This document shows positions 900-29,144 of a DNA stretch of 64,000 bases, piece by piece; position 1 is the stretch's first letter, and every line of letters starts with the position of its first letter. Made by a program: the position numbers and the translations under genes. Source of the DNA: an uncultured Acidobacteriota bacterium. Its GTDB lineage: Bacteria; Acidobacteriota; Vicinamibacteria; Vicinamibacterales; CAVVIG01. The stretch is taken from assembly GCA_902825985.1 (NCBI GenBank), contig CADEDC010000003.1:94383-158382 (forward strand). Reading direction: 5' to 3'. Below the pieces are notes generated by a model that did not search any database, was not told where the DNA came from, and worked only from the letters and a program-made list of their open reading frames with translations.

Positions 900-2108
900 A
901 TGAGCCAGGCAACTCGTCGGAGCCGGAAAGCTCTCCTCTACGCGCTGGTGGCGCTGGCTGCCGTCGGCGTCGGCGTCGCCGGATACGGCAGCTTGAAAGG
1001 CGCCTCGGCGGACGTCGACCCGTCGCAACTGGCCACCGTCGAACTCGGCACCATGGTGCAGTCGGTGGTGGCGACCGGCAAGGTCGAGCCGATCACGAAG
1101 GTCGAGATCAAGTCGAAGGCGAACGGCATCATCAAGGCGCTGCCGCTCGACATCGATGACGCGGTCGACGAAGGCGACATCCTGGCTGAACTCGACAAGG
1201 ATCAGCTGCAGGCGGCACAGCGCGGCGCCGAGGCGAACCTGCTGGCGGCGCGGGCGGCTCTCGAGGCCGCTGCCGCCCAGCTCCAGAAGAACATCGTCGA
1301 AGCCGAAGGGCCCGACGTGGCGTTCGCCCGCCGCGCCCTCGAGCGGGCGCAGTCGCTGTTCGCGCAGCGGCTGGTGGCGCAGTCCGGGTTGGACGACGCG
1401 CAGAGCGCGCTCGACGTCGCCGAGAATCGCCGGCGGGCCGCCGAGTCGCAGCTGGCGGTGAGCCGCGCCCGGGTCGCCGAGGCGCGCGCGCAAGTGGCTC
1501 AAGCACAGGCGGCGGCCGATCGCGCCGCCGAGGATCTCGCAAACGCGACGCTGCGCGCACCGATTCGCGGCACGATCCTGAGCCGGGACGTCGAGATCGG
1601 CAGTCCCGTGTCGTCCATCCTGAATCTCGGCGCCAACGGCTCGCTCATCATGACGCTCGGCGACATCGATCAGGTGTTCGTCCGCGGCAAGGTGGACGAG
1701 GCCGACATCGGTCGCGTGCAGTTCAATCAGCTGGCCCGCATCCGGGTCGAGACGTTCAAGGACAAGGTGTTCACCGGCCGTGTCACCAAGATCTCGCCGA
1801 TGGGGACCGAGAAGGACAACGTCACGAGTTTCGAGGTCCGGGTCTCCATCGACAACCCGGGCAAGGAGCTCAAGGCCAACATGACGGCGAACGCCGAGAT
1901 CGTCCTGCAGGAGTTCCCCGGCTCGCTGCTGCTCCCGGAGGCCGCGATCAGCTACGACGCGCAGCGACAGGCGTCGGTCGACGTCATCGATCCGGTGGCG
2001 AAGGGCGGCCGTCGCTCGGTGCCGGTGCGAGTCGGGGTCGGCAACGGCACCAGAATCCAGGTGCTCGAGGGGTTGAAGGTCGGCGACCGGGTCATTCTGC
2101 CGTCCTAG
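900..2108 (+). CDS. Periplasmic adaptor of the MacA/HlyD family
   Basis: This 402-residue protein has an N-terminal membrane anchor (about residues 10-30), a lipoyl/biotinyl half-motif, a long alpha-helical hairpin very rich in Ala, Arg and Glu (about 100-215), the second lipoyl half (A-P-I-R-G-T-I-L) and a beta-barrel domain. This is the order found in membrane fusion proteins of MacAB-type tripartite transporters. It would span the periplasm and couple inner-membrane permeases to an outer-membrane channel. An AAGG ribosome site precedes the ATG. It is followed after 10 bases by a MacB-like permease, so the three genes to 4694 form one operon. No outer-membrane channel or ATPase gene is adjacent. 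Confidence 0.92.
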   Translation: MSQATRRSRKALLYALVALAAVGVGVAGYGSLKGASADVDPSQLATVELGTMVQSVVATGKVEPITKVEIKSKANGIIKALPLDIDDAVDEGDILAELDKDQLQAAQRGAEANLLAARAALEAAAAQLQKNIVEAEGPDVAFARRALERAQSLFAQRLVAQSGLDDAQSALDVAENRRRAAESQLAVSRARVAEARAQVAQAQAAADRAAEDLANATLRAPIRGTILSRDVEIGSPVSSILNLGANGSLIMTLGDIDQVFVRGKVDEADIGRVQFNQLARIRVETFKDKVFTGRVTKISPMGTEKDNVTSFEVRVSIDNPGKELKANMTANAEIVLQEFPGSLLLPEAAISYDAQRQASVDVIDPVAKGGRRSVPVRVGVGNGTRIQVLEGLKVGDRVILPS

Positions 2109-2118
2109 GACGTCCGCG

Positions 2119-3414
2119 ATGCGCGAGGCCCTCGTCCAGTCGCTCGACAATCTCCGCGCCAACCGGCTGCGCAGCTTGCTCACGATGTTCGGGATCATGT
2201 GGGGCATGGTCTCCATCGTCATCCTCTCGGCGACCGGCGAGGGTTTCCGGCTCGGCAACGAACACGTGCTGCAAGAACTCGGTCGCAACGTCGGCATCAT
2301 CTGGGGCAACCGCACCACGCTGCAGGCCGGCGGCGAGCGCGCCGGGCGGCGGATCTTCCTCAGCGTCGACGACGCGCGGGCGGTGGCGGCGGAATCGTCG
2401 ATGGTCGCGGTCGTCAGTCCGGAGCTGGAGCGCGGCGGTGTCAGCGTCAAGAGCCCGTACAACGCCGCGAACGCCCGCATCACCGGCGTCGAGCCGCAGT
2501 ACCAGGGCATCCGCACCATCGAGGTGGCCAGCGGCCGGAATCTCTCCGTCACCGACGAGCAGCAGCGGGCCCGGGTGGCCATCCTCGGCCACGACGTCGC
2601 CAGGCAGCTGTTCGGCACGCGTCCGGTCGTCGACGAGACGGTCGCCATCAACGGCCTGCCGTACACCGTCGTCGGACGCATCCGTCTCAAGGAACAGGAC
2701 AGCAACTACAACGGTCCCGACAACAACAAGGTCTTCATCCCGTTCTCGACGATGATGCAGGACCTGCCGCGCACCGACGCGCCGGTCGGCTCGGTCTCGA
2801 ACATCGTCGTCGCGCCGCGGCCGGAGGTCATCGCGCAGCTGCCGACCGTGCTCGAGCGGCGGCGCGGGCGCATCGACGACATCGACTGGCCGCTCGAGAA
2901 GAACATCCGCGGCATCCTGGCGCGCCGCCACGGCTTCGACCCGGACGACCGCGAGGCGCTGAGCATGTGGGACACCTCGCTCGAGACCCTGATGTTCAGC
3001 CGCATGGTCGACCGGATGCGCGACTTCTTCGTCCTCGTCGGACTGGTGACGTTGACGCTCGGGGGCATCGGCGTGATGAACATCATGCTGGTCGCGGTCA
3101 AGGAGCGGACCCGCGAGATCGGCGTGCGCAAGGCGCTCGGCGCGACGACGAACGCCATCCAGCGGCAGTTCTTCCTCGAAGGCCTGTTCCTCGCCCTGGT
3201 CAGCGGCGCCATCGGCATGGGGCTCGCCCTCGGCCTCTGCGCGCTGGTCAACCTCGCGCCGATGCCGCCGCGGTTCTCCGGCATGATCGTCTCGCCGCAG
3301 AGCGGTCTGATGGCGCTCGGCGTGCTCATCGCGATCGGCGTCGTCACCGCCACGTATCCGGCCCGCCGCGCCGCGGAGCTGCCACCGGTCGAAGCCCTGC
3401 GCTTCGAGCTCTAG
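2119..3414 (+). CDS. MacB-like ABC transporter permease (FtsX family), copy 1
   Basis: The 431 residues have the MacB permease plan: a first membrane helix near residues 20-42, a periplasmic core of about 230 residues, then three helices at the C-terminus. The cytoplasmic E-R-T-R-E-I-G-V-R-K-A-L-G-A motif, which couples FtsX permeases to their ATPase, lies between the second and third helices. Unlike MacB itself it has no fused nucleotide-binding domain. It stands 10 bases after the adaptor gene and 17 bases before a paralogous permease. It may form a heterodimer with that paralogue, powered by an ATPase encoded elsewhere. The substrate is unknown. Confidence 0.9.
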   Translation: MREALVQSLDNLRANRLRSLLTMFGIMWGMVSIVILSATGEGFRLGNEHVLQELGRNVGIIWGNRTTLQAGGERAGRRIFLSVDDARAVAAESSMVAVVSPELERGGVSVKSPYNAANARITGVEPQYQGIRTIEVASGRNLSVTDEQQRARVAILGHDVARQLFGTRPVVDETVAINGLPYTVVGRIRLKEQDSNYNGPDNNKVFIPFSTMMQDLPRTDAPVGSVSNIVVAPRPEVIAQLPTVLERRRGRIDDIDWPLEKNIRGILARRHGFDPDDREALSMWDTSLETLMFSRMVDRMRDFFVLVGLVTLTLGGIGVMNIMLVAVKERTREIGVRKALGATTNAIQRQFFLEGLFLALVSGAIGMGLALGLCALVNLAPMPPRFSGMIVSPQSGLMALGVLIAIGVVTATYPARRAAELPPVEALRFEL

Positions 3415-21495: not shown

Positions 21496-21525
21496 TTGAC
21501 TTATTTGTGAAACGATTCACATAAT
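21496..21525 (+). promoter_or_regulatory. Sigma-70-type promoter of the LolD/FtsX-like operon
   Basis: TTGACT (21496-21501) and CATAAT (21520-21525) are separated by 18 bases. The predicted leader to the ATG at 21566 is about 34 bases and contains a small hairpin, GGACGC paired with GCGTCC (21530-21547). A CRP-type palindrome fills the spacer. Confidence 0.7.
21506..21521. promoter_or_regulatory. CRP/FNR-type operator TGTGA-N6-TCACA
   Basis: The 16-bp sequence TGTGAAACGATTCACA matches the CRP consensus TGTGA-N6-TCACA exactly and forms TGTGAA-ACGA-TTCACA. It lies between the -35 and -10 boxes and overlaps the -10, so a bound CRP-like or TetR/GntR-like regulator would repress here. Confidence 0.72.
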
Positions 21526-21565
21526 TGCCGGACGCGCCTCTGCGTCCGACGCCAGCGGGAACACG

Positions 21566-22240
21566 ATGATCGACCTCGACCGCGTCACCAGGCAGTTCGA
21601 AGGGAAGCGGAACGTCACCGCGCTGCGCGAGGTCAGCCTGACCATCGCGAAGGGCGACCTGGTGTCGATCGTCGGGCCGTCGGGATCCGGCAAGTCGACT
21701 CTGCTGAACCTGATGGGCGGCCTCGACCGGCCGACGACCGGTTCGGTCGCCATCGACGGTGAATCGCTCGCCAACCTGGGCGACGACGGCCTGACCCGAG
21801 TGCGGCGCGACAAGATCGGTTTCATCTTCCAGTTCTTCAACCTGCTGCCGACCCTGTCGTGCCTCGAGAACGTCGGGCTCCCGTTGCATCTGCGCGGCTG
21901 GGCCCGCAGGAAGGTGCACGAGCGGGCGATCGAACTGCTGCAGCTCGTCCAGCTCGGCCACCGGGTGCACCATCTTCCCGAAGAGCTCTCGGGCGGCGAG
22001 CGCCAGCGCGTCGCCATCGCTCGCGCCCTGTCGATCTATCCGCCCATCCTGCTCGCCGATGAACCGACCGGCAATCTCGACACGCGCACCGGCGGCGACA
22101 TTCTGGCGCTGATCGACGACCTGCACCGGCGGCTCGGCGCGACCGTCGTCATCGTCACGCACGATCTCCAGGTGGCGGAACGCTGCCAGCGGACCATCAC
22201 GCTGCGCGACGGTGGCATCGAACAGGACGTCCGGCGATGA
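21566..22240 (+). CDS. ABC transporter ATPase, LolD/YbbA-like
   Basis: The 224-residue protein is a stand-alone nucleotide-binding domain. It has Walker A G-P-S-G-S-G-K-S-T at 37-45, the Q-loop in I-F-Q-F-F-N-L-L-P-T, the signature E-L-S-G-G-E-R-Q-R-V-A near 142, Walker B L-L-A-D-E-P-T-G-N-L-D and a switch His. The FQFFNLLPTLS and TGNLDT segments place it with LolD, MacB and YbbA, which drive FtsX-type permeases rather than import systems. It overlaps the permease gene by ATGA, so the two are made as a pair. It could in principle also serve the ATPase-less permeases at 2119-4694. Confidence 0.94.
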   Translation: MIDLDRVTRQFEGKRNVTALREVSLTIAKGDLVSIVGPSGSGKSTLLNLMGGLDRPTTGSVAIDGESLANLGDDGLTRVRRDKIGFIFQFFNLLPTLSCLENVGLPLHLRGWARRKVHERAIELLQLVQLGHRVHHLPEELSGGERQRVAIARALSIYPPILLADEPTGNLDTRTGGDILALIDDLHRRLGATVVIVTHDLQVAERCQRTITLRDGGIEQDVRR

Positions 22241-24789
22241 ACCTGCTCCGTCTCATCAGCTGGCCGTACGTCCGCAAGCACGTGCTGCGGACGGTCCTGA
22301 CCACCGCCGGCATCGTCCTCGGTGTCGCCGTGTTCGTCGGCATGCACACCGCCAACCAGAGCGTCCTGTTCGCCTTCAACAGCACGGTCGATCGCATTGC
22401 CGGCAAGACCGAGCTCCAGGTGTCCGCCGGCGAAACCGGCTTCGACGAAGCGGTGCTCGAGACGGTGCAGGGTGCCGCGACGGTCCGGGTTGCCGTCCCG
22501 GTCATCGAAGCGGTCGTCGACAGCCAGCGGGAAGGCCAGGGCAACCTGCTCGTCCTCGGCACGGACATGACCGGCGATCGCAGCCTGCGCGACTACGACC
22601 TCGAGGACGCCGACGAGGCGATCATCGACGATCCGCTGGTGTTCCTGGCGCAGGCCGACTCGATCATGCTGACGAAGGCGTTCGCCGATCGAAACGGCCT
22701 CTCGGTCAACAGCGTGATGACGCTCGGCACGGCACTCGGGCCGCGGGCGTTCACCGTCCGCGGCATCATGAAGTCGAAGGGGCTGGCCAGTGCGTTCGGC
22801 GGCAATCTCGCCATCATGGACATCTACGCCGCGCAGCGGATGTTCGGCCGCGGCCGGACCTTCGATCGGATCGATCTGGCGACGCGCCCGGGCGTGACGA
22901 TTGAAGAGGCGGGGGCCGAGTTGCGGACGCTGCTCGGCCCGGGGTTCCAGGTCGATGTGCCGGCCGGACGCGGGCAGCAGTTCCAGGCGATGACCGCCTC
23001 CTACGGCATCATGGTCAGCATCTCGAGCCTCTTCGCCCTGTTCATCGGGATGTTCATCATCTACAACGCTTTTGCGATTGCCGTGACGCAGCGGCGATCG
23101 GAGATCGGCATCCTGCGGGCGCTCGGGGCAACCGGCAGCCAGGTTCGCCGGCTGTTCCTGCTCGAGAGCGCCGCGACCGGCCTGGTCGGGTCGCTCGGTG
23201 GCCTGGCGCTCGGGCTGCTCATGGCGCGCGGCATCGCCGCCTCCATCGGAACGATCATGCAGGACGTCTATGGCGTCGCCCAGCGTGCCGACGAGATCGC
23301 CACCAGTCCGGCGCTGCTCGGCCTCGCGCTGGCGGTCGGGGTGGGCACCAGCGTCGTGGCGGCGCTCATCCCGGCCGGCCAGGCGGCGCGGGTGGATCCG
23401 GTGCAGGCGCTCCAGAAGGGCAGGTACCAGGTGCTGTCGGCAGGCGAGAATCGCGCCCGCCTGATGGCCGCGGCGGCGCTCGGCATCGTCTCCGTCCTGT
23501 GCGTCGCCGTGCCGACGTCGCGTCCGGTCTTCTACGCCGGCTATCTGCTGGCCATCGTCGTCGCGCTGCTGCTCGGGCCGATTCTCGCCCTCGTGCTCAG
23601 CCGGGCGATCCGGCCGTTGTTGAAGTGGCTGCGGCCCGTCGAAGGGGCGTTGGCGGCGGACAGTCTCATCCAGGCGCCGCGGCGGACGTCGGCCAGCGTC
23701 GCGGCGCTGATGCTGTCGCTCGCCCTGGTGACCGCATTCGCGGGCATGGCGCGCGCCAGCTACAACTCGATTCTCGACTGGGTGAACGGCACCCTGAACC
23801 CGGATCTGTTCGTCAGCCCGTCGCAGGACGTCGTGACCAGGACCCTGCGTTTCCCGGCCGCGATGGGCGACGAGCTGGCGGCGCTGCCCGGCATCGAGCG
23901 TGTGCAGCGGGTGCGCAACGCCCGCATCCTGTTTCGCGGCACACCGGTGATGATCGTCGCGACCGACATCGCCAGCCTGGCCGAGACCGCGCCGCGTGAA
24001 CCTGTAGAGGGACATCCGACCGAGATGTACCGGCTGACCGCCGCGGGACAGGGGCTGATGATCTCGGACAACCTCGCCAGACTGGCCGGCCTGCACGCCG
24101 GCGACGCGATCGAGATTCCCGCGCCGGCCGGCATCATCTCCCTGCCGATTGCCGGCATCATCGTCGACTACTCGGATCAGCAAGGGTCGATCATCATGGA
24201 CCAGGCGGTTTACCAGCGCTACTGGCGTGACGACACGGTGAACGTCTTCCGCATCTATCTCCGGGACGACGCCACCGCCGACGCCGTGAGCCGGTCGATT
24301 CTGTCGACCTACGCCGGTGAACGGCAGGTGTTCGTGCTGACCAACGGCGAGCTGCGGGACTACATCCTGCGCGTCACCGACCAGTGGTTCGGCCTGACCT
24401 CGATACAGATTGCCGTCGCGGTGTTCGTCGCCATCCTCGGTATCGTCAATACTCTGACGGTATCGATCACGGACCGCCGGCGCGAGCTCGGCGTGCTCAA
24501 GGCCGTGGGTGGCCTGCGCGGCCAGATCCGCCGGACCATCTGGTTGGAAGCGATCAGCATCGGGACGCTCGGGTTGGTGCTCGGCTTCGCGCTCGGCGCG
24601 CTGAACCTGTACTACATCCTGCAGATCATCGAGCGCGACATTGCCGGCATGCGGCTGGACTACGTCTTCCCGTTCGGCACGGCCCTCGCGCTCGTCCCGG
24701 TGATTCTGATCGCGGCGTTCGTGGCGGCGCTGTGGCCGGCCGAGTCGGCGGTGCGTGGGTCGCTGGTGGAGGCGCTCGAGTATGAATGA
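22237..24789 (+). CDS. ABC transporter permease with two FtsX units (YbbP-like)
   Basis: The 850-residue protein has an N-terminal helix, a first periplasmic core, three helices with R-R-S-E-I-G-I-L-R-A-L-G-A at about 285-300, three further helices around 410-460, a second periplasmic core and a last helix group with R-R-R-E-L-G-V-L-K-A-V-G-G. This duplicated FtsX plan is that of YbbP and of permeases that extract lipids or lipoproteins from the inner membrane. The start is fixed by the ATGA overlap with the ATPase. A LolA-like gene follows with an 8-base overlap, which suggests a lipidic substrate. The exact substrate is unknown. Confidence 0.93.
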   Translation: MNLLRLISWPYVRKHVLRTVLTTAGIVLGVAVFVGMHTANQSVLFAFNSTVDRIAGKTELQVSAGETGFDEAVLETVQGAATVRVAVPVIEAVVDSQREGQGNLLVLGTDMTGDRSLRDYDLEDADEAIIDDPLVFLAQADSIMLTKAFADRNGLSVNSVMTLGTALGPRAFTVRGIMKSKGLASAFGGNLAIMDIYAAQRMFGRGRTFDRIDLATRPGVTIEEAGAELRTLLGPGFQVDVPAGRGQQFQAMTASYGIMVSISSLFALFIGMFIIYNAFAIAVTQRRSEIGILRALGATGSQVRRLFLLESAATGLVGSLGGLALGLLMARGIAASIGTIMQDVYGVAQRADEIATSPALLGLALAVGVGTSVVAALIPAGQAARVDPVQALQKGRYQVLSAGENRARLMAAAALGIVSVLCVAVPTSRPVFYAGYLLAIVVALLLGPILALVLSRAIRPLLKWLRPVEGALAADSLIQAPRRTSASVAALMLSLALVTAFAGMARASYNSILDWVNGTLNPDLFVSPSQDVVTRTLRFPAAMGDELAALPGIERVQRVRNARILFRGTPVMIVATDIASLAETAPREPVEGHPTEMYRLTAAGQGLMISDNLARLAGLHAGDAIEIPAPAGIISLPIAGIIVDYSDQQGSIIMDQAVYQRYWRDDTVNVFRIYLRDDATADAVSRSILSTYAGERQVFVLTNGELRDYILRVTDQWFGLTSIQIAVAVFVAILGIVNTLTVSITDRRRELGVLKAVGGLRGQIRRTIWLEAISIGTLGLVLGFALGALNLYYILQIIERDIAGMRLDYVFPFGTALALVPVILIAAFVAALWPAESAVRGSLVEALEYE

Positions 24790-25642
24790 CGCAGTCGGAT
24801 CGTCGCCGGTCGGCCCGGCCTGCCGCCGGGTGCCGATCGCCCTTGGCTCGTCGCCGGTCGGCGGCCGGACGGTTCGCCGGCCGCGCCTGCTGGCCGGCGC
24901 GCTGCTCGGGCTCACACTGGGGTCACCGGCGCTGGCCGCGGCGCAGGATGCACGGCAGATCGTCCAGGAGGTGCAGAAGCGCGGCGACGTGCGATCACAG
25001 CGCTATGAAGGGCTGTTGCAGGTGTTCAACGCGAGGGGCACGGTGTCCGACAAGCGCTGGATGCTCGAGCGCCTCGGCTCCTACGGCGCCAGCCGGGTGG
25101 TTCTCCGCTTCACGCAGCCGGCGGAAGTGAGGGGCGTCGCCCTGCTGGTCGTCAACCACCCGGACCGTGCGTCCGATCAATGGATGTGGACGCCCAGCAT
25201 CGAGCGGGACCGTCGCATCGCGCTCCAGGATCGCTCGCAACGCTTCTTCGGCACCGACTTCAGCTTCGAGGATCTCGAGGAACGCGACGTGCAACAGTTC
25301 GACTACGTGCTGCAGGGCGAGGAGGCGGTCGATGGTGAGAGCTGTTGGCGCATCCAGTCGGTGCCGACGCGGACGAAGTCGTCGCAGTACACGCGGTCGA
25401 TCGTCTGGGTCCGCAAGTCCACCTACACCTTCGCGCGGATCGACAACTACATCGGCGACCAGGTGGTGCGTCGGCTCACCTACGGCGACATGGCCGACGT
25501 CCAGGGCATCTGGACGGCCCGGCGGCTGGAGATGACCGATCTGCGCAGCGGCAGCCGCACGCGCCTGACGCTCGATCGGCTGCAGTACAACGTGCCGATG
25601 ACGGCGGACGACTTCACCCTGCAGGCGCTGCGGCGGCAGTAG
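24782..25642 (+). CDS. LolA-like outer membrane lipoprotein-sorting protein
   Basis: The 286-residue protein has a signal peptide (R-R-P-R-L-L-A-G-A-L-L-G to A-L-A-A-A-Q, about residues 40-65) and a LolA-like beta-sheet domain with V-L-R-F-T-Q-P-A-E-V-R-G, W-M-W-T-P-S-I-E-R-D-R-R-I and G-T-D-F-S-F-E-D-L. Such proteins carry acylated molecules across the periplasm. The lead before the signal peptide is long (about 38 residues) and contains a repeated G-S-S-P-V-G, so the true start may lie further in. It overlaps the permease gene by 8 bases and is followed by the barrel gene, making an ATPase-permease-carrier-outer membrane series. Confidence 0.88.
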   Translation: MNDAVGSSPVGPACRRVPIALGSSPVGGRTVRRPRLLAGALLGLTLGSPALAAAQDARQIVQEVQKRGDVRSQRYEGLLQVFNARGTVSDKRWMLERLGSYGASRVVLRFTQPAEVRGVALLVVNHPDRASDQWMWTPSIERDRRIALQDRSQRFFGTDFSFEDLEERDVQQFDYVLQGEEAVDGESCWRIQSVPTRTKSSQYTRSIVWVRKSTYTFARIDNYIGDQVVRRLTYGDMADVQGIWTARRLEMTDLRSGSRTRLTLDRLQYNVPMTADDFTLQALRRQ

Positions 25643-25643
25643 C

Positions 25644-26927
25644 GTGAGCGGACGCCTGCACGCCTCGGCGTTGGCTATGATCGGCGTCCGACCGCTGGCA
25701 GTCGCGTTCGCCAGCCTGGTGCTGCTGCGGGTGCTGGCGCCGGCCGCCGCCGATGCCCAGACGATCGCCCAGCGCGGCTTCGTCGAGGTGCGCGGCACGC
25801 TCTTTCCGCAGTCGGCGACCAACGATTCACGCCGCCTCGTCGGGGATCTGGCCGCCCGTGAGGAGATCTTCGTCCGCGCGACCGGCTGGCTGCGGCTGGC
25901 CGCCGGGCTCGAGGCCCGCGCCAACAGCTACGACCAGGTGGACGTGTCGTGGCGCCTCCGCGTCGAGGACCGCACCCGGAAACGCCCGGCGCTGAACGTC
26001 CGCCGGCTGTCGGCCAGCGTGACCCGCGGCGGCTGGACCGTGGATCTCGGGAAGCAGTTCATCCGCTGGGGCAAGGTCGACATCGTGACGCCCACCGATC
26101 GATTCGCGCCGCGCGACTATCTGACCGTCATCGACAACGACTTCCTGGCCGTGCGTGGCGGCCGCGTGACCTTCACGGCGGGCGACGACACCCTCGAAGC
26201 GGTCGTTGTACCGTGGTTCACGCCGAGCCGACTGCCGCTGCCGACCCAGCGTTGGACGGTCGCGCCGGCCGGCGTGGCGATTGTCGACGTCCCGGGCGGG
26301 CCGCTGCCATCCCGGGTCCAGACCGGGGCCCGCTGGTCGCACCTGGGCGATGGCTACGAGTTCTCGGTGGCCGTCTTCGACGGCTTCAACCACCTGCCGA
26401 ACGTGCAGGCCCTTCCGCTCGCCGGCCTGCCGCTCACGGTCGGCGTGACGCCGACCTACCCGCGGATGACGATGTATGGTGGCGACGTCGCCGTGCCGAC
26501 GACGTGGCTGACGCTGAAAGGCGAGGCGGCGTACTACACGACGTCCACCCCGGGCACCGACGAGTTCGTGCTGTACGTGGCGCAGCTCGAACGCCAGACC
26601 GGCGAGTGGCTGCTCATCGGCGGCTACGCCGGATCGCTCGTGACCCGGCCGGGCGGCGGCAACACGTTCGCGCCGGATCGCGGTACCACCCGCGCCTTCA
26701 TCGGCCGCGCCTCGTACACGATCGATCCCAATCGTACGGTCGCCGTCGAGACGGCGCTTCGCCAGAACGGCGACGGCGTCTACGTCAAGGGCGAGTACTC
26801 GCGGGCCAGCGGGGCGCACTGGCGTACGACACTGGCTGGCGCGTGGATTGGCGGCGACCCGGCCGACTTCCTCGGGCAGTTCCGGCGGAACTCACACCTG
26901 ACCCTGACCTTCCGCTACTCTTTCTGA
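25644..26927 (+). CDS. Outer-membrane beta-barrel protein, DUF1302-like
   Basis: The 427-residue protein starts with GTG at 25644 (ATG at 25677 is possible) and has a signal peptide ending A-D-A-Q near residue 38. The rest alternates polar and hydrophobic residues in the manner of barrel strands and ends in F-R-Y-S-F, with the C-terminal Phe recognised by the barrel assembly machinery. The segment W-T-V-D-L-G-K-Q-F-I-R-W-G-K-V-D resembles DUF1302 and alginate-export-type barrels. As the last gene of the lipid-transport-like operon it is the natural outer-membrane end point. No ligand can be named. Confidence 0.82.
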   Translation: MSGRLHASALAMIGVRPLAVAFASLVLLRVLAPAAADAQTIAQRGFVEVRGTLFPQSATNDSRRLVGDLAAREEIFVRATGWLRLAAGLEARANSYDQVDVSWRLRVEDRTRKRPALNVRRLSASVTRGGWTVDLGKQFIRWGKVDIVTPTDRFAPRDYLTVIDNDFLAVRGGRVTFTAGDDTLEAVVVPWFTPSRLPLPTQRWTVAPAGVAIVDVPGGPLPSRVQTGARWSHLGDGYEFSVAVFDGFNHLPNVQALPLAGLPLTVGVTPTYPRMTMYGGDVAVPTTWLTLKGEAAYYTTSTPGTDEFVLYVAQLERQTGEWLLIGGYAGSLVTRPGGGNTFAPDRGTTRAFIGRASYTIDPNRTVAVETALRQNGDGVYVKGEYSRASGAHWRTTLAGAWIGGDPADFLGQFRRNSHLTLTFRYSF

Positions 26928-26930
26928 GGC

Positions 26931-27752
26931 ATGCCGCCGCCAGCGTTCGAGCCGCTGCTCGTCGAAGTCGACAATGCCGGCCCGACCACCGGCACCGGCA
27001 ACAACACCTACCTGCTGACGTCGGCAGACGCCCCGGCGTGTTTGATCGACGCCGGCGTCGGGACCGCGGTGCACCTCGACCGCCTGGCGCACCACCTCGC
27101 GGCCCGCCAGACATCCCTGGCGGACGTGCTCGTCACCCACGCGCATCCGGACCACAGTGCCGGCGCGCCGTCGCTCTCGCACCGGTTCGGCGTGTCGCGG
27201 TTCACGAAGTACCGCTGGCCGGCCGAAGACGATCGCCGTATCGCATGGGCGTACGTCGACGACGGCACCGCGCTCTGCGTGGCCGGCACGACGCTCGTCG
27301 CGCTGCACACGCCGGGGCATTCGCCGGATCATCTGGCGTTCTGGCACGAGCCGTCGGGCACGATCTTCACCGGCGATCTCGTCAACCGGCGCTCGAGCGT
27401 CGCGATCGTCTTCAGCCGCGGCGGCGACCTGACCAGCTATCTCGCCTCGCTCGAACGCCTGCTGGCGCTGAACCCGACCCGGCTGCTGCCCGGACACGGC
27501 CCCGCGATCGAGCACGCCGGCGAGGCGTTGCGGACGACCCTGGCCCACCGCCGCGCCCGCGAGGCGCAGGTGATGGCGGCGCTTGGCACCGGTCACGAGA
27601 CCGTAGGGGCGATCGCGGATTCCATCTATGATGGTCTGCAGCCGGCCCTGATGCCGCTCGCCCGCGAGACCGTGCGGGCGCATCTGGAGAAGCTGAAGGC
27701 CGACGGCCGCGCGATCGACGAGCGCAGCCGCTGGCGGGCGTCGACAAGGTGA
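26931..27752 (+). CDS. MBL-fold hydrolase, LACTB2-like, with C-terminal winged helix
   Basis: The 273-residue protein has a metallo-beta-lactamase motif T-H-A-H-P-D-H at residues 69-75, then H-T-P-G-H-S-P-D-H and F-T-G-D-L-V with further metal ligands, and L-P-G-H-G-P. The last 60 residues (E-A-Q-V-M-A-A-L through V-R-A-H-L-E-K-L) form a winged-helix tail typical of LACTB2-like proteins, some of which are RNA endonucleases. The gene begins 3 bases after the barrel gene stop, so it is probably in the same transcript. Its role in that operon is unclear. Confidence 0.88.
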   Translation: MPPPAFEPLLVEVDNAGPTTGTGNNTYLLTSADAPACLIDAGVGTAVHLDRLAHHLAARQTSLADVLVTHAHPDHSAGAPSLSHRFGVSRFTKYRWPAEDDRRIAWAYVDDGTALCVAGTTLVALHTPGHSPDHLAFWHEPSGTIFTGDLVNRRSSVAIVFSRGGDLTSYLASLERLLALNPTRLLPGHGPAIEHAGEALRTTLAHRRAREAQVMAALGTGHETVGAIADSIYDGLQPALMPLARETVRAHLEKLKADGRAIDERSRWRASTR

Positions 27753-27770: not shown

Positions 27771-29144
27771 ATGGAAAAGATCATCGACTTCATCAACGTC
27801 AACCGCGACCGCTACCTGAGCGAGCTGAAGGCGCTGCTGGCCATCCCGTCGATCAGCGCCCTGCCGGCGCATCGTGACGACGTGGCACGGTGCGGCGAGT
27901 GGTGCGCCGACGAACTGCGACGCATCGGACTGCAGAATGTCGCGTTGAAGCCGACACCGGGCAATCCGGTGGTGTACGGCGACTGGCTCGGCGCGGACGG
28001 CGCGCCGACCATCCTGTTCTACGGCCACTACGACGTGCAGCCGGTGGATCCGCTCGGCCTCTGGGAGTCGCCGCCGTTCGAGGCGACCGTCCGTGACGGC
28101 GAGATCTACGCGCGCGGCGCCGCCGACGACAAGGGCCAGATCTTCATGCACATGAAGGCCATCGAGGCCCACATGAAGCAGAACGGCCGGCTGCCGGTGA
28201 ACATCAAGGTCATCCTCGAAGGCGAGGAGGAGGTCGGCAGCACCAACCTCGACACGTTCATCGGCGAGAACAAGGCCGCCCTGGCCGCCGACGTCGTCGT
28301 CATCTCCGATTCGACGATGTTCGCGCGCGGCGTGCCGTCGATCTGCTACGGGTTGCGCGGCCTCGTCTACTGCCAGATCGATCTGCGCGGCAGCGCCACC
28401 GACCTGCACTCCGGCTCGTTCGGCGGCGCCGTCGCGAATCCCGCGTTCGTGCTCGCCCAGATGATTGCCGGCATGAAGGACCGCGGCGGTCACATCAAGG
28501 TGCCGGGCTTCTACGACGAGGTGGTGCCGCTGACCGAGGCGGAGCGCCAGGCATGGGCGACGCTGCCGTTCAACGAGCGACAGTACAAGAAGGACTTCGG
28601 CATCCCCAAGCTCACCGGTGAAACCGACTACACGACGCTCGAGCGGACGTGGGCTCGCCCGACGCTCGAAGTGAACGGGCTGCTGTCCGGGTTCACCGGT
28701 GACGGGGCGAAGACCGTGCTGCCGGCCGTGGCGATGGCGAAGATCAGCATGCGCCTGGTGCCGAACCAGGATCCGGACACGATCGCCCGCCGGTTCGAGG
28801 ACTACGTGCGGAAGATCGCGCCGAAGACGGTGGAGTTGACGGTCACCCGCATGCACGGCGGCAAGCCGTGGATGACGGCCTACGACAACCCGTACGTCCA
28901 GGCCGCCGGCCGCGCCATCGAGCGGGGCTTCGGCAAGACGCCGGTGTTCACGCGCGAGGGCGGGTCGATTCCGGTGGTCTCGACCTTTCAGGAGGTGCTC
29001 GGCGTGCCGGCCGTGCTGTTCGGCGTCGCCCTGCCCGATGACAACGCGCACGCGCCGAACGAGAAGCTGGACGTCGGCTACTTCCACTCCGGCATCATCG
29101 CGTCCGCCCTTCTCTACGACGAGATCTCACGGGTCGCGAAGTAG
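27771..29144 (+). CDS. M20 family dipeptidase/metallopeptidase
   Basis: The 457-residue protein has M20 zinc ligands in F-Y-G-H-Y-D-V-Q-P near residue 83, G-A-A-D-D-K-G-Q near 117 and the E-G-E-E-E-V-G-S stretch near 150 with the catalytic Glu and the next ligand. The bacterial dimerisation domain follows and a last His lies in D-N-A-H-A-P-N-E near 430. It closely fits the dipeptidase subgroup related to carnosinases. No signal peptide is present, so it is cytoplasmic. It begins 18 bases after the metallo-hydrolase and may be co-transcribed. Confidence 0.93.
   Translation: MEKIIDFINVNRDRYLSELKALLAIPSISALPAHRDDVARCGEWCADELRRIGLQNVALKPTPGNPVVYGDWLGADGAPTILFYGHYDVQPVDPLGLWESPPFEATVRDGEIYARGAADDKGQIFMHMKAIEAHMKQNGRLPVNIKVILEGEEEVGSTNLDTFIGENKAALAADVVVISDSTMFARGVPSICYGLRGLVYCQIDLRGSATDLHSGSFGGAVANPAFVLAQMIAGMKDRGGHIKVPGFYDEVVPLTEAERQAWATLPFNERQYKKDFGIPKLTGETDYTTLERTWARPTLEVNGLLSGFTGDGAKTVLPAVAMAKISMRLVPNQDPDTIARRFEDYVRKIAPKTVELTVTRMHGGKPWMTAYDNPYVQAAGRAIERGFGKTPVFTREGGSIPVVSTFQEVLGVPAVLFGVALPDDNAHAPNEKLDVGYFHSGIIASALLYDEISRVAK

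Follow-up and report, generated by a model that had tools for sequence, protein, structure and literature searches.

The window analysed here is a stretch of 64,000 nucleotides. It carries a cassette of four ORFs on the + strand, whose coding region was delimited by ORF translation and Pfam to positions 21566-26927. Coding starts at 21566, the initial 70 bases of 21496..26927 being upstream DNA. The genes of the cassette and those that follow it are:

21566..22240, + strand: ATPase of a type VII ABC transporter (LolD/YbbA-like), 224 aa; ABC_tran 1.1e-34
22237..24789, + strand: single-chain double-FtsX permease, 850 aa; FtsX twice and MacB_PCD twice, ten predicted helices
24782..25642, + strand: LolA-like periplasmic carrier, 286 aa; LolA_like PF17131 2.5e-51
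25644..26927, + strand: predicted outer-membrane beta-barrel, DUF1302-related, 427 aa, C-terminal RYSF
26931..27752, + strand: MBL-fold hydrolase; PF00753 and BLACT_WH
27771..29144, + strand: M20-family peptidase, after the MBL gene; Peptidase_M20 2.6e-34

The ORFs and the Pfam matches agree with the preliminary description, in which four genes with these roles were named in overlapping order. In detail, the ATPase and permease genes overlap by 4 nt and the permease and carrier genes by 8 nt, and a gap of 1 nt lies between carrier and barrel. The carrier start was placed at the ATG at 24782, the mechanical ORF beginning at a GTG at 24755. A Thy1-type thymidylate synthase gene is the 5′ neighbor of the cassette. 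The MBL gene begins 4 nt past the last base of the barrel gene and is probably co-transcribed with the cassette in this genome. Both the MBL and the M20 gene were rejected as core parts: among the 80 best-ranking of 148 relatives, 11 loci have a downstream MBL match and 13 the M20 cluster. The hydrolase TesA was not found among the cassette neighbors tested (the Thy1-type gene upstream; carrier, barrel, MBL, and M20 genes downstream), and the adjoining genes tested gave no match to TPR proteins.

The ATPase retains intact Walker A, signature, Walker B, and H-loop motifs. Its best NCBIfam model is LolD (238.8 bits, under the cut-off of 307.75), and, of the E. coli proteins set against it, LolD is the nearest (46.5% identity, vs 45% for YbbA). 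The helices of the permease are predicted to be arranged 4+2+4, with two MacB_PCD periplasmic domains; ten hydrophobic segments appear in the average of a 46-row alignment and eleven in the window sequence alone. The FtsX-like core, the MacB-type periplasmic domains, and the paired ATPase with intact motifs assign the ABC pair, as judged by domains and motifs, to the type VII ABC transporter superfamily. Against the NCBIfam LolC/E model the permease scores 111.4 bits and does not reach the cut-off of 362.45, and its family profile gives 67.1 bits to LolE, 47.5 to LolC, and 16.1 to YbbP. The ABC pair had been called YbbAP-like; the ten-helix layout is in accordance with this term, but since the permease is nearer to LolE than to YbbP the term is valid for the layout only. 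Orthology with YbbAP was rejected on the permease sequence and on the different partner gene.

The carrier exceeds the curated cut-off of LolA_like PF17131, and PF03548 (LolA) is absent from its matches at E<=0.1. By eye, its N-terminus is Sec-type signal-like without a lipobox. The predicted model adopts the LolA superfamily fold and matches the solved P. gingivalis LolA3 (9tp6), for which the available text of the source reports a hydrophobic groove (PMC13103446). The hydrophobic cavity on which the earlier proposal relied is consistent with this fold; for the window carrier itself, a groove is predicted by homology to 9tp6. A strand-face estimate showed a modest hydrophobic face (0.41 vs −1.13), by a method that selects the better face by construction. 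For LolA3 of F. johnsoniae, a more polar binding site and the lack of a deletion phenotype are reported in the available part of the source (PMC11885536).

Pfam gave no match for the window barrel itself, with none to PF06980 (DUF1302) at E<=1. DUF1302 is weakly reached by 5 out of 32 aligned barrel homologues (best 0.0037), and the window barrel scores 57.9 bits against a Prevotella protein annotated as DUF1302. The homology to DUF1302 is only remote, and the "DUF1302-like" label is not borne out as worded; plain membership in PF06980 was rejected, as the Pfam gathering score was not reached. PHROGs returned nothing for carrier or barrel. The predicted barrel model has an OprD/AlgE fold and matches OprD/Occ porins and AlgE, Omp85 and FadL barrels not being among the matches listed in the fold searches. 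A sequence search of solved structures gave a single chance-level match (6cum, E 0.89). Barrels of the OprD/AlgE type usually pass polar solutes.

The exact order ABC-FtsX-LolA-barrel, whose conservation in relatives was decisive for the earlier proposal, was found again in 58 of the 80 related loci with names, a sample that leans to close kin because it was taken from the top of 148 relatives. In the well-flanked part of this sample (at least 3.7 kb before and at least 1.7 kb after the carrier), 47 of 54 loci show the exact order and one is reordered. In the other six (L055, L058, L062, L071, L083, and L096) at least one recognised gene is absent, and in L055, L058, and L071 the barrel was not recognised. 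The gene-label profiles were built partly from the same 80 loci; the same order was also obtained for them with the window's own proteins and homologue alignments. The genes flanking the cassette vary between clades, which marks the cassette as the conserved unit, and the recurrence of the four-gene order is far beyond chance. Outside the four genes, no cluster occurs in more than 14 of these best 80 loci, nor do they have a conserved substrate, biosynthesis, or catabolic gene next to the cassette.

A survey of 297 Acidobacteriota genomes, with scoring limited to the best first-look candidates in each (about three for the permease, six for the barrel, and nine for the carrier), found the carrier at >200 bits in 21 genomes. 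The permease (>700 bits) was found in 23, including all 21 carrier genomes, and the barrel (E<=1e-30) in 14, all within the 23. The bit limits were chosen after inspection of the lists, and with so few candidates scored per genome the absences are not proven. A carrier match in a 22nd genome (G090, 142 bits), next to an MMPL gene (L162), was left out of the count. The 21 carrier genomes cover 13 family codes, and the distribution of the cassette in Acidobacteriota is patchy, in scattered lineages. Permease and carrier are at most 800 bp apart in 16 of the 21 and on separate contigs in five (G005, G151, G180, G227, and G267). In G180 and G227 the split is suggestive of a break in the assembly, and in G151 the ATPase directly precedes the carrier, with the permease on another contig.

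PF17131 carriers are also found beside other pumps. For other phyla, the evidence consists of nine plasmid loci, hand-picked from 22 matching records, and the labels of the 80 related loci. An MMPL/RND gene is adjoining or one gene away in eight of the nine plasmid loci, four of which also have the barrel. Within Acidobacteriota, 77 loci were hand-picked from the best-first listed carrier matches, so the shares of the engines are not phylum frequencies. Among these matches, MMPL/RND pumps (engine B) are near the carrier in 27 of 77 loci and single-FtsX genes (engine C) in 29, engine C meaning at least one single-FtsX match in the chain (two in 18 of the 29, an ATPase in 19). Ten of the 77 had no engine by the chain rule; ABC/FtsX matches are nearby in L166, L178, L180, and L194, and an MMPL match in L168. 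Where the barrel is in the chain, 26 of 44 loci have MMPL, again among the matches listed, and the carrier-barrel pair is present in 26 of the 27 engine-B loci among them, as well as in Prevotella beside MMPL. The frequent pairing of LolA-like proteins and DUF1302 barrels with MMPL/RND pumps, as put forward in the preliminary description, is borne out by these counts.

The carrier tree comprised 107 of 167 rows (every plasmid row and every row from the Acidobacteriota genomes, together with the window and 20 loci chosen by hand from the 80 with names) and came from a quick search, with SH-aLRT support only and midpoint drawing. The engine label, with A denoting ABC plus the fused permease, needs two changes on this tree when sixteen no-engine rows are left out. 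With these rows as a fourth state, 15 changes are needed against a shuffled mean of 57.4, and none of 200 shuffles was as low. Fourteen carrier positions are specific to engine A: E63, G77, L79, K91, W93, G99, S104, V119, L121, Q149, R151, T158, E167, and Q202. As related carriers elsewhere often lie beside an MMPL/RND pump, the power source seems to have been exchanged.

Among known systems, AmeABCD and the P. putida genes PP_0765/PP_0766 and PP_2018/PP_2019 combine a DUF1302 barrel, a DUF1329 LolA-superfamily protein, and an RND or efflux transporter, according to the available text (PMC6394551, PMC10866462). In the window, an ABC ATPase and a ten-helix permease take the place of that transporter, no RND/HAE3 pump is in the cassette, and the second periplasmic protein of those sets (AmeC, PP_2018) was not seen in it. 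The MMPL-PF17131-DUF1302 operon, for instance of Prevotella nigrescens, shares with the window the carrier family, a homologous barrel, and contiguous genes, but an MMPL pump replaces the ABC pair and its carrier falls outside the cassette clade. LolCDE-LolA resembles the cassette in the homology of ATPase and permease, a LolA superfamily carrier, and, by model, extraction onto a soluble carrier. It differs in having separate four-helix subunits rather than one fused 850-aa permease; moreover, the cassette has a PF17131 carrier and a barrel, lacks LolB, and stays below the NCBIfam LolD and LolC/E cut-offs. YbbAP-TesA likewise has an ATPase and a ten-helix single-chain type VII permease (PMC12646458, available part), but its partner TesA was not found among the tested neighbors of the window ABC genes, and YbbP is more distant in sequence than LolE/LolC. 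The route had also been called undescribed, a word to be used with caution. An export system for a non-polar ligand, proposed in 2026 for Borrelia BBJ23-29, is similar, with a type VII ABC transporter, a LolA-like carrier, and an outer-membrane barrel; the available text describes a four-helix homodimeric permease, an Omp85 barrel, and two TPR proteins (PMC13078400), whereas the window has a ten-helix single-chain permease and a barrel modelled as OprD/AlgE-type. No description of the ABC-PF17131-DUF1302 arrangement was recognised among the papers listed in literature searches, judged mostly from titles and abstract openings.

The same genome encodes, on contig C65, a paralogue of the permease (507 bits), also double-FtsX, one gene away from a CrtC-type lipocalin gene. 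Loci of this kind, with ABC, double-FtsX, and CrtC/lipocalin genes, were seen also on Caballeronia and Eleftheria plasmids; they have a homologous permease type, with a lipocalin-type, possibly lipid-binding partner replacing the LolA-like carrier and barrel of the window.

On balance, the cassette is somewhat more probably than otherwise an ATP-powered variant of LolA-like/DUF1302 export, its predicted task being to bring a hydrophobic molecule to the outer membrane. Two copies of the ATPase would power the ten-helix permease through mechanotransmission, the mechanism of LolCDE and YbbAP. The permease would then hand the molecule to the carrier, in whose groove the acyl or hydrocarbon part would be shielded. 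As the cassette is without LolB, the carrier would dock on the barrel, a protein with the fold of 18-strand porins, from which the molecule would enter or cross the outer membrane. In MMPL versions of the route a proton-driven pump would perform the first step; in the window cassette, ATP would power it instead. We infer the direction of the route, the substrate class, and every protein contact, and likewise the completeness of the route and the lipid nature of its cargo, both of which had been suggested earlier. Relatives that handle hydrophobic compounds were counted for this reading: in the available parts of the sources, deletion of ameABCD lowers monoterpene tolerance (PMC6394551), P. putida requires a DUF1302/DUF1329 pair on Tween20 (PMC10866462), and extraction of hydrophobic compounds is the role proposed for YbbAP-TesA (PMC12646458). 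Counted against it were the lack of a conserved substrate or biosynthesis gene beside the cassette in the best 80 loci, the patchy distribution, the six well-flanked loci short of a recognised gene, the five genomes with carrier and permease on separate contigs, and the recognition of the barrel in only 14 of the 23 permease genomes. The modest hydrophobic face of the carrier, the findings on F. johnsoniae LolA3, and the polar solutes usual for OprD/AlgE-type barrels also weigh on this side.

The housekeeping Lol system was rejected as the main reading: a canonical PF03548 LolA (contig C101) and a LolC/E above the NCBIfam cut-off are encoded elsewhere in the genome, and the cassette is thus probably not the housekeeping lipoprotein route. 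A specialised second Lol route, in which the permease extracts a subset of lipoproteins, the LolA-like protein carries them, and the barrel aids surface display, agrees with the closeness of the permease profile to LolE and LolC, with that of the ATPase to LolD, and with the carrier fold. We nevertheless consider it unlikely, given those canonical proteins, a carrier of PF17131 and not of PF03548, and the many sister carriers near MMPL/RND pumps; moreover, LolA3 of P. gingivalis is described, in the available text, as interacting only very weakly with its LolB (PMC13103446).

Still less likely, in our estimation, is an inward or two-way route, with the barrel admitting hydrophobic nutrients for the carrier to ferry to the inner membrane and with the ABC pair acting as an uptake or clearing device. 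OprD/Occ porins, which are the nearest barrel folds, are uptake channels. Growth on Tween20 requires the related DUF1302/DUF1329 proteins (PMC10866462), and on a C28 alkane an MMPL protein with a LolA-like domain is up 42-fold and a porin-like protein appears only there, in the available part of PMC6304351. On the contrary, the type VII ABC examples in the available text of PMC12646458 cover extraction, efflux, enzyme regulation, and antibiotic sensing, with no import among them, and the best 80 loci have no catabolic gene conserved beside the cassette. A further reading, in which the ABC pair and carrier work in envelope maintenance or in the efflux of metabolites and the co-transcribed barrel is an independent porin, seems quite improbable. 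The three well-flanked loci in which no barrel was recognised point this way, as do the fewer genomes with a barrel than with a carrier (14 vs 21, best candidates scored) and, weakly, the C65 permease, near which five tested genes gave no barrel-family match, as the window barrel itself gives none. Against it stand the barrel in its exact position in 58 of the best 80 loci and the carrier-barrel pairs that also accompany MMPL pumps, in Acidobacteriota (among the matches listed) and in Prevotella.

Most of what is known about shuttle-type export of lipids to the outer membrane comes from Lol and RND/MMPL-linked sets. If the ATP-driven export reading holds, a conserved version equipped with a barrel of its own would demonstrate that pumps are exchangeable while carrier and exit stay. 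As a broader and rather doubtful extension, the PF17131 carrier and the DUF1302-type barrel may form an engine-independent trans-envelope lipid pathway, a shuttle-and-exit module taken over by different motors (MMPL/RND; ABC plus the fused ten-helix permease; ABC plus single-FtsX permeases). Each motor would come with a carrier lineage and docking residues of its own. On this view, the lineage that includes the window would be the first one described to pay for DUF1302-type export with ATP, and not with the proton gradient, and its cargo would be a lipid particular to Acidobacteriota. Members of this phylum have unusual membrane lipids, and the cassette may offer a handle on how they build or decorate their outer membrane. 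The 14 engine-A positions of the carrier provide a residue set for testing carrier-pump docking.

Four genes on the forward strand of the window, overlapping or touching each other, compose the cassette. The features of the region are as follows:

Upstream of the cassette, - strand, thymidylate synthase complementing protein (Thy1)
21566-22240, + strand, ABC ATPase (ABC_tran in Pfam)
22237-24789, + strand, permease of 850 aa (two FtsX and two MacB_PCD stretches in Pfam)
24782-25642, + strand, LolA-like carrier (LolA_like PF17131 in Pfam, 2.5e-51)
25644-26927, + strand, barrel, adjoining the carrier gene
26931-27752, MBL-fold hydrolase, closely downstream of the barrel
27771-29144, M20 peptidase, closely downstream of the hydrolase

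The carrier has a further, sub-threshold Pfam match to DUF1329 (1.7e-4), and the Pfam search of the window's barrel returned no match.

The four-gene module is real and conserved, and both its parts and their association are directly observed. Carrier relatives were sought in one genome per species (84,980 genomes) and the best 80 of the 148 relatives were kept. The chain is exactly ABC-FtsX-LolA-barrel in 58 of these 80 loci. Among the 54 loci in which the carrier is preceded by at least 3.7 kb and followed by at least 1.7 kb of sequence, 47 have the exact order, one is reordered (L066) and six lack at least one of the recognised genes (L055, L058, L062, L071, L083, and L096). Thus, the gene order which the preliminary description proposed as a candidate lipid-export operon is indeed conserved in related genomes. 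The other neighbours vary from clade to clade. Labels are of Acidobacteriota type in 77 of the best 80 of the 148 relatives. The remaining three, that is, VFZL01000007.1 (L043, Acidimicrobiia), CALQBJ020000008.1 (L050, Bifidobacterium breve), and DYJN01000013.1 (L121, Arcobacter), look like mislabelled public MAG records that bear the cassette; the first, the only one cross-checked, shares its carrier with a genome assigned to the genus of the window.

Profiles of the permease, carrier and barrel were searched in a draw of 297 Acidobacteriota genomes. With bit limits chosen once the match lists had been seen, 23 genomes have the permease (>700 bits), 21 have the carrier (>200 bits) and 14 have the barrel (E<=1e-30). 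All 21 carrier genomes, spanning 13 family codes, and all 14 barrel genomes contain the permease, and 13 of the latter contain the carrier. Under the assumption of independent genomes, which does not hold, the chance of the 21/21 overlap is ~3e-30. When the limits of the searches alone are applied, 46 genomes match the permease profile, with the weaker matches scoring 367-518 bits, and 22 match the carrier profile. The permease lies <800 bp from the carrier in 16 of the 21 genomes and on a different contig in five, of which at least two are probably assembly breaks. In genome G151 (L052/L139), the ATPase is followed directly by carrier and barrel, and a permease of the cassette family is located on another contig. 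The carrier matches G261:C35 and G167:C10 have one in-frame TGA each inside the matched stretch.

The Walker A, signature, Walker B and H-loop motifs are all present in the ATPase, which shares 46.5% identity with LolD of E. coli and 45% with YbbA; the LolD model gives it 238.8 bits, below the cut-off of 307.75. Ten hydrophobic segments appear in the permease when 46 aligned rows are averaged, and eleven from the window sequence alone. The pair had been described as YbbAP-like, and this holds for the segment layout (4+2+4, as in YbbP) but not for the permease sequence, the family profile being nearer to LolE (67.1 bits) and LolC (47.5) than to YbbP (16.1). Judging from sequence, the most fitting description is a type VII permease that combines the layout of YbbP with a sequence of Lol type.

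The cassette was also considered as the housekeeping Lol route. This was rejected as the main reading since the same genome has a separate PF03548 LolA (contig C101) and a LolC/E, the one match over the cut-off, beside an ABC ATPase (contig C88). The only PF17131 protein of this genome is the cassette carrier.

PF17131 is common in the phylum (254/297 genomes at E<=0.001, 206/297 above the cut-off), and its neighbouring pumps, or engines, differ. A chain rule on neighbouring genes was applied to 77 of the listed PF17131 loci and to nine plasmid loci. In the 77 loci, engine A (ABC with the fused double-FtsX permease) was found in 11, engine B (MMPL) in 27, engine C (single-FtsX genes) in 29 and none in 10. 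The chain includes a barrel in 8/11, 26/27, 6/29, and 4/10, respectively. Among the 29 C loci, 18 have two single-FtsX genes, and the chain includes an ATPase in 19. An MMPL/RND gene belongs to the chain in seven of the nine plasmid loci; in Leisingera such a gene lies one gene away, and in Persicobacter an FtsX gene takes its place. Thirteen loci with two single-FtsX matches and an ATPase beside the carrier (L145, L146, L154, L156, L179, L182, L189, L190, L192, L193, L205, L210, and L211), some with a barrel match after the ATPase, appear to represent this route with an ABC pump whose permease is unfused. In L167 (G001:C2), carrier and MMPL matches share one long open frame, apparently an MMPL-LolA-like fusion.

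In the carrier tree (107 rows), all 27 A rows form one clade with ten unlabelled rows (SH-aLRT 99) and without any B or C row. The engine label changes twice, the minimum possible for three states. Because three B rows sit in the half of the tree holding A and C, the simplest reading, on a tree drawn at the midpoint, would be that MMPL gave way to ABC on two separate occasions. At fourteen carrier positions, conservation is >=90% among the A carriers and <25% among those of B and C; these positions are candidates for engine-specific docking. Carrier residues 134-169 form a charged stretch of very high conservation (W-x-W-x-P...RR...QDR..RFFGTDFSFEDLEERD), with some positions common to all three engine types and others specific to A. 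Read as export by carrier and barrel, the module would be of an already known kind, in a variant whose motor has been exchanged. This putative exchange is notable and testable for specialists.

In the proposed ATP-driven shuttle, the type VII pair would extract cargo from the inner membrane and pass it to the LolA-like carrier, which would deliver it to the barrel. Direction, cargo and contacts are suggested by analogy with LolCDE, with YbbAP-TesA (PMC12646458), where the extraction of lipids is likewise at the stage of a proposal, and with the RND-linked DUF1302/DUF1329 sets (PMC6394551 and PMC10866462). Among the papers considered, the closest published idea is Borrelia BBJ23-29 (PMC13078400), whose barrel and permease differ from those of the cassette. 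The function and cargo of the module are predictions. From the patchy distribution of the cassette, we infer that the molecule carried is most likely a hydrophobic product, such as a lipid, that only some Acidobacteriota make.

Elsewhere in the window's genome (C65:20000-30000, L214), a paralogous ABC gene accompanies a 904-aa double-FtsX permease (507 bits to the cassette permease family), with a CrtC/lipocalin gene one gene away. The annotated arrangement is comparable on Caballeronia and Eleftheria plasmids (two records examined of 42 matching), where permease relatives adjoin a gene annotated as carotenoid 1,2-hydratase. Therefore, permeases of the cassette type come with different possible lipid-binding partners. 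Within the window, positions 900-3411 hold an HlyD-type adaptor gene and, after it, a gene for a MacB-type FtsX permease, a pair predicted to be a type VII export locus of its own and of a more conventional kind.
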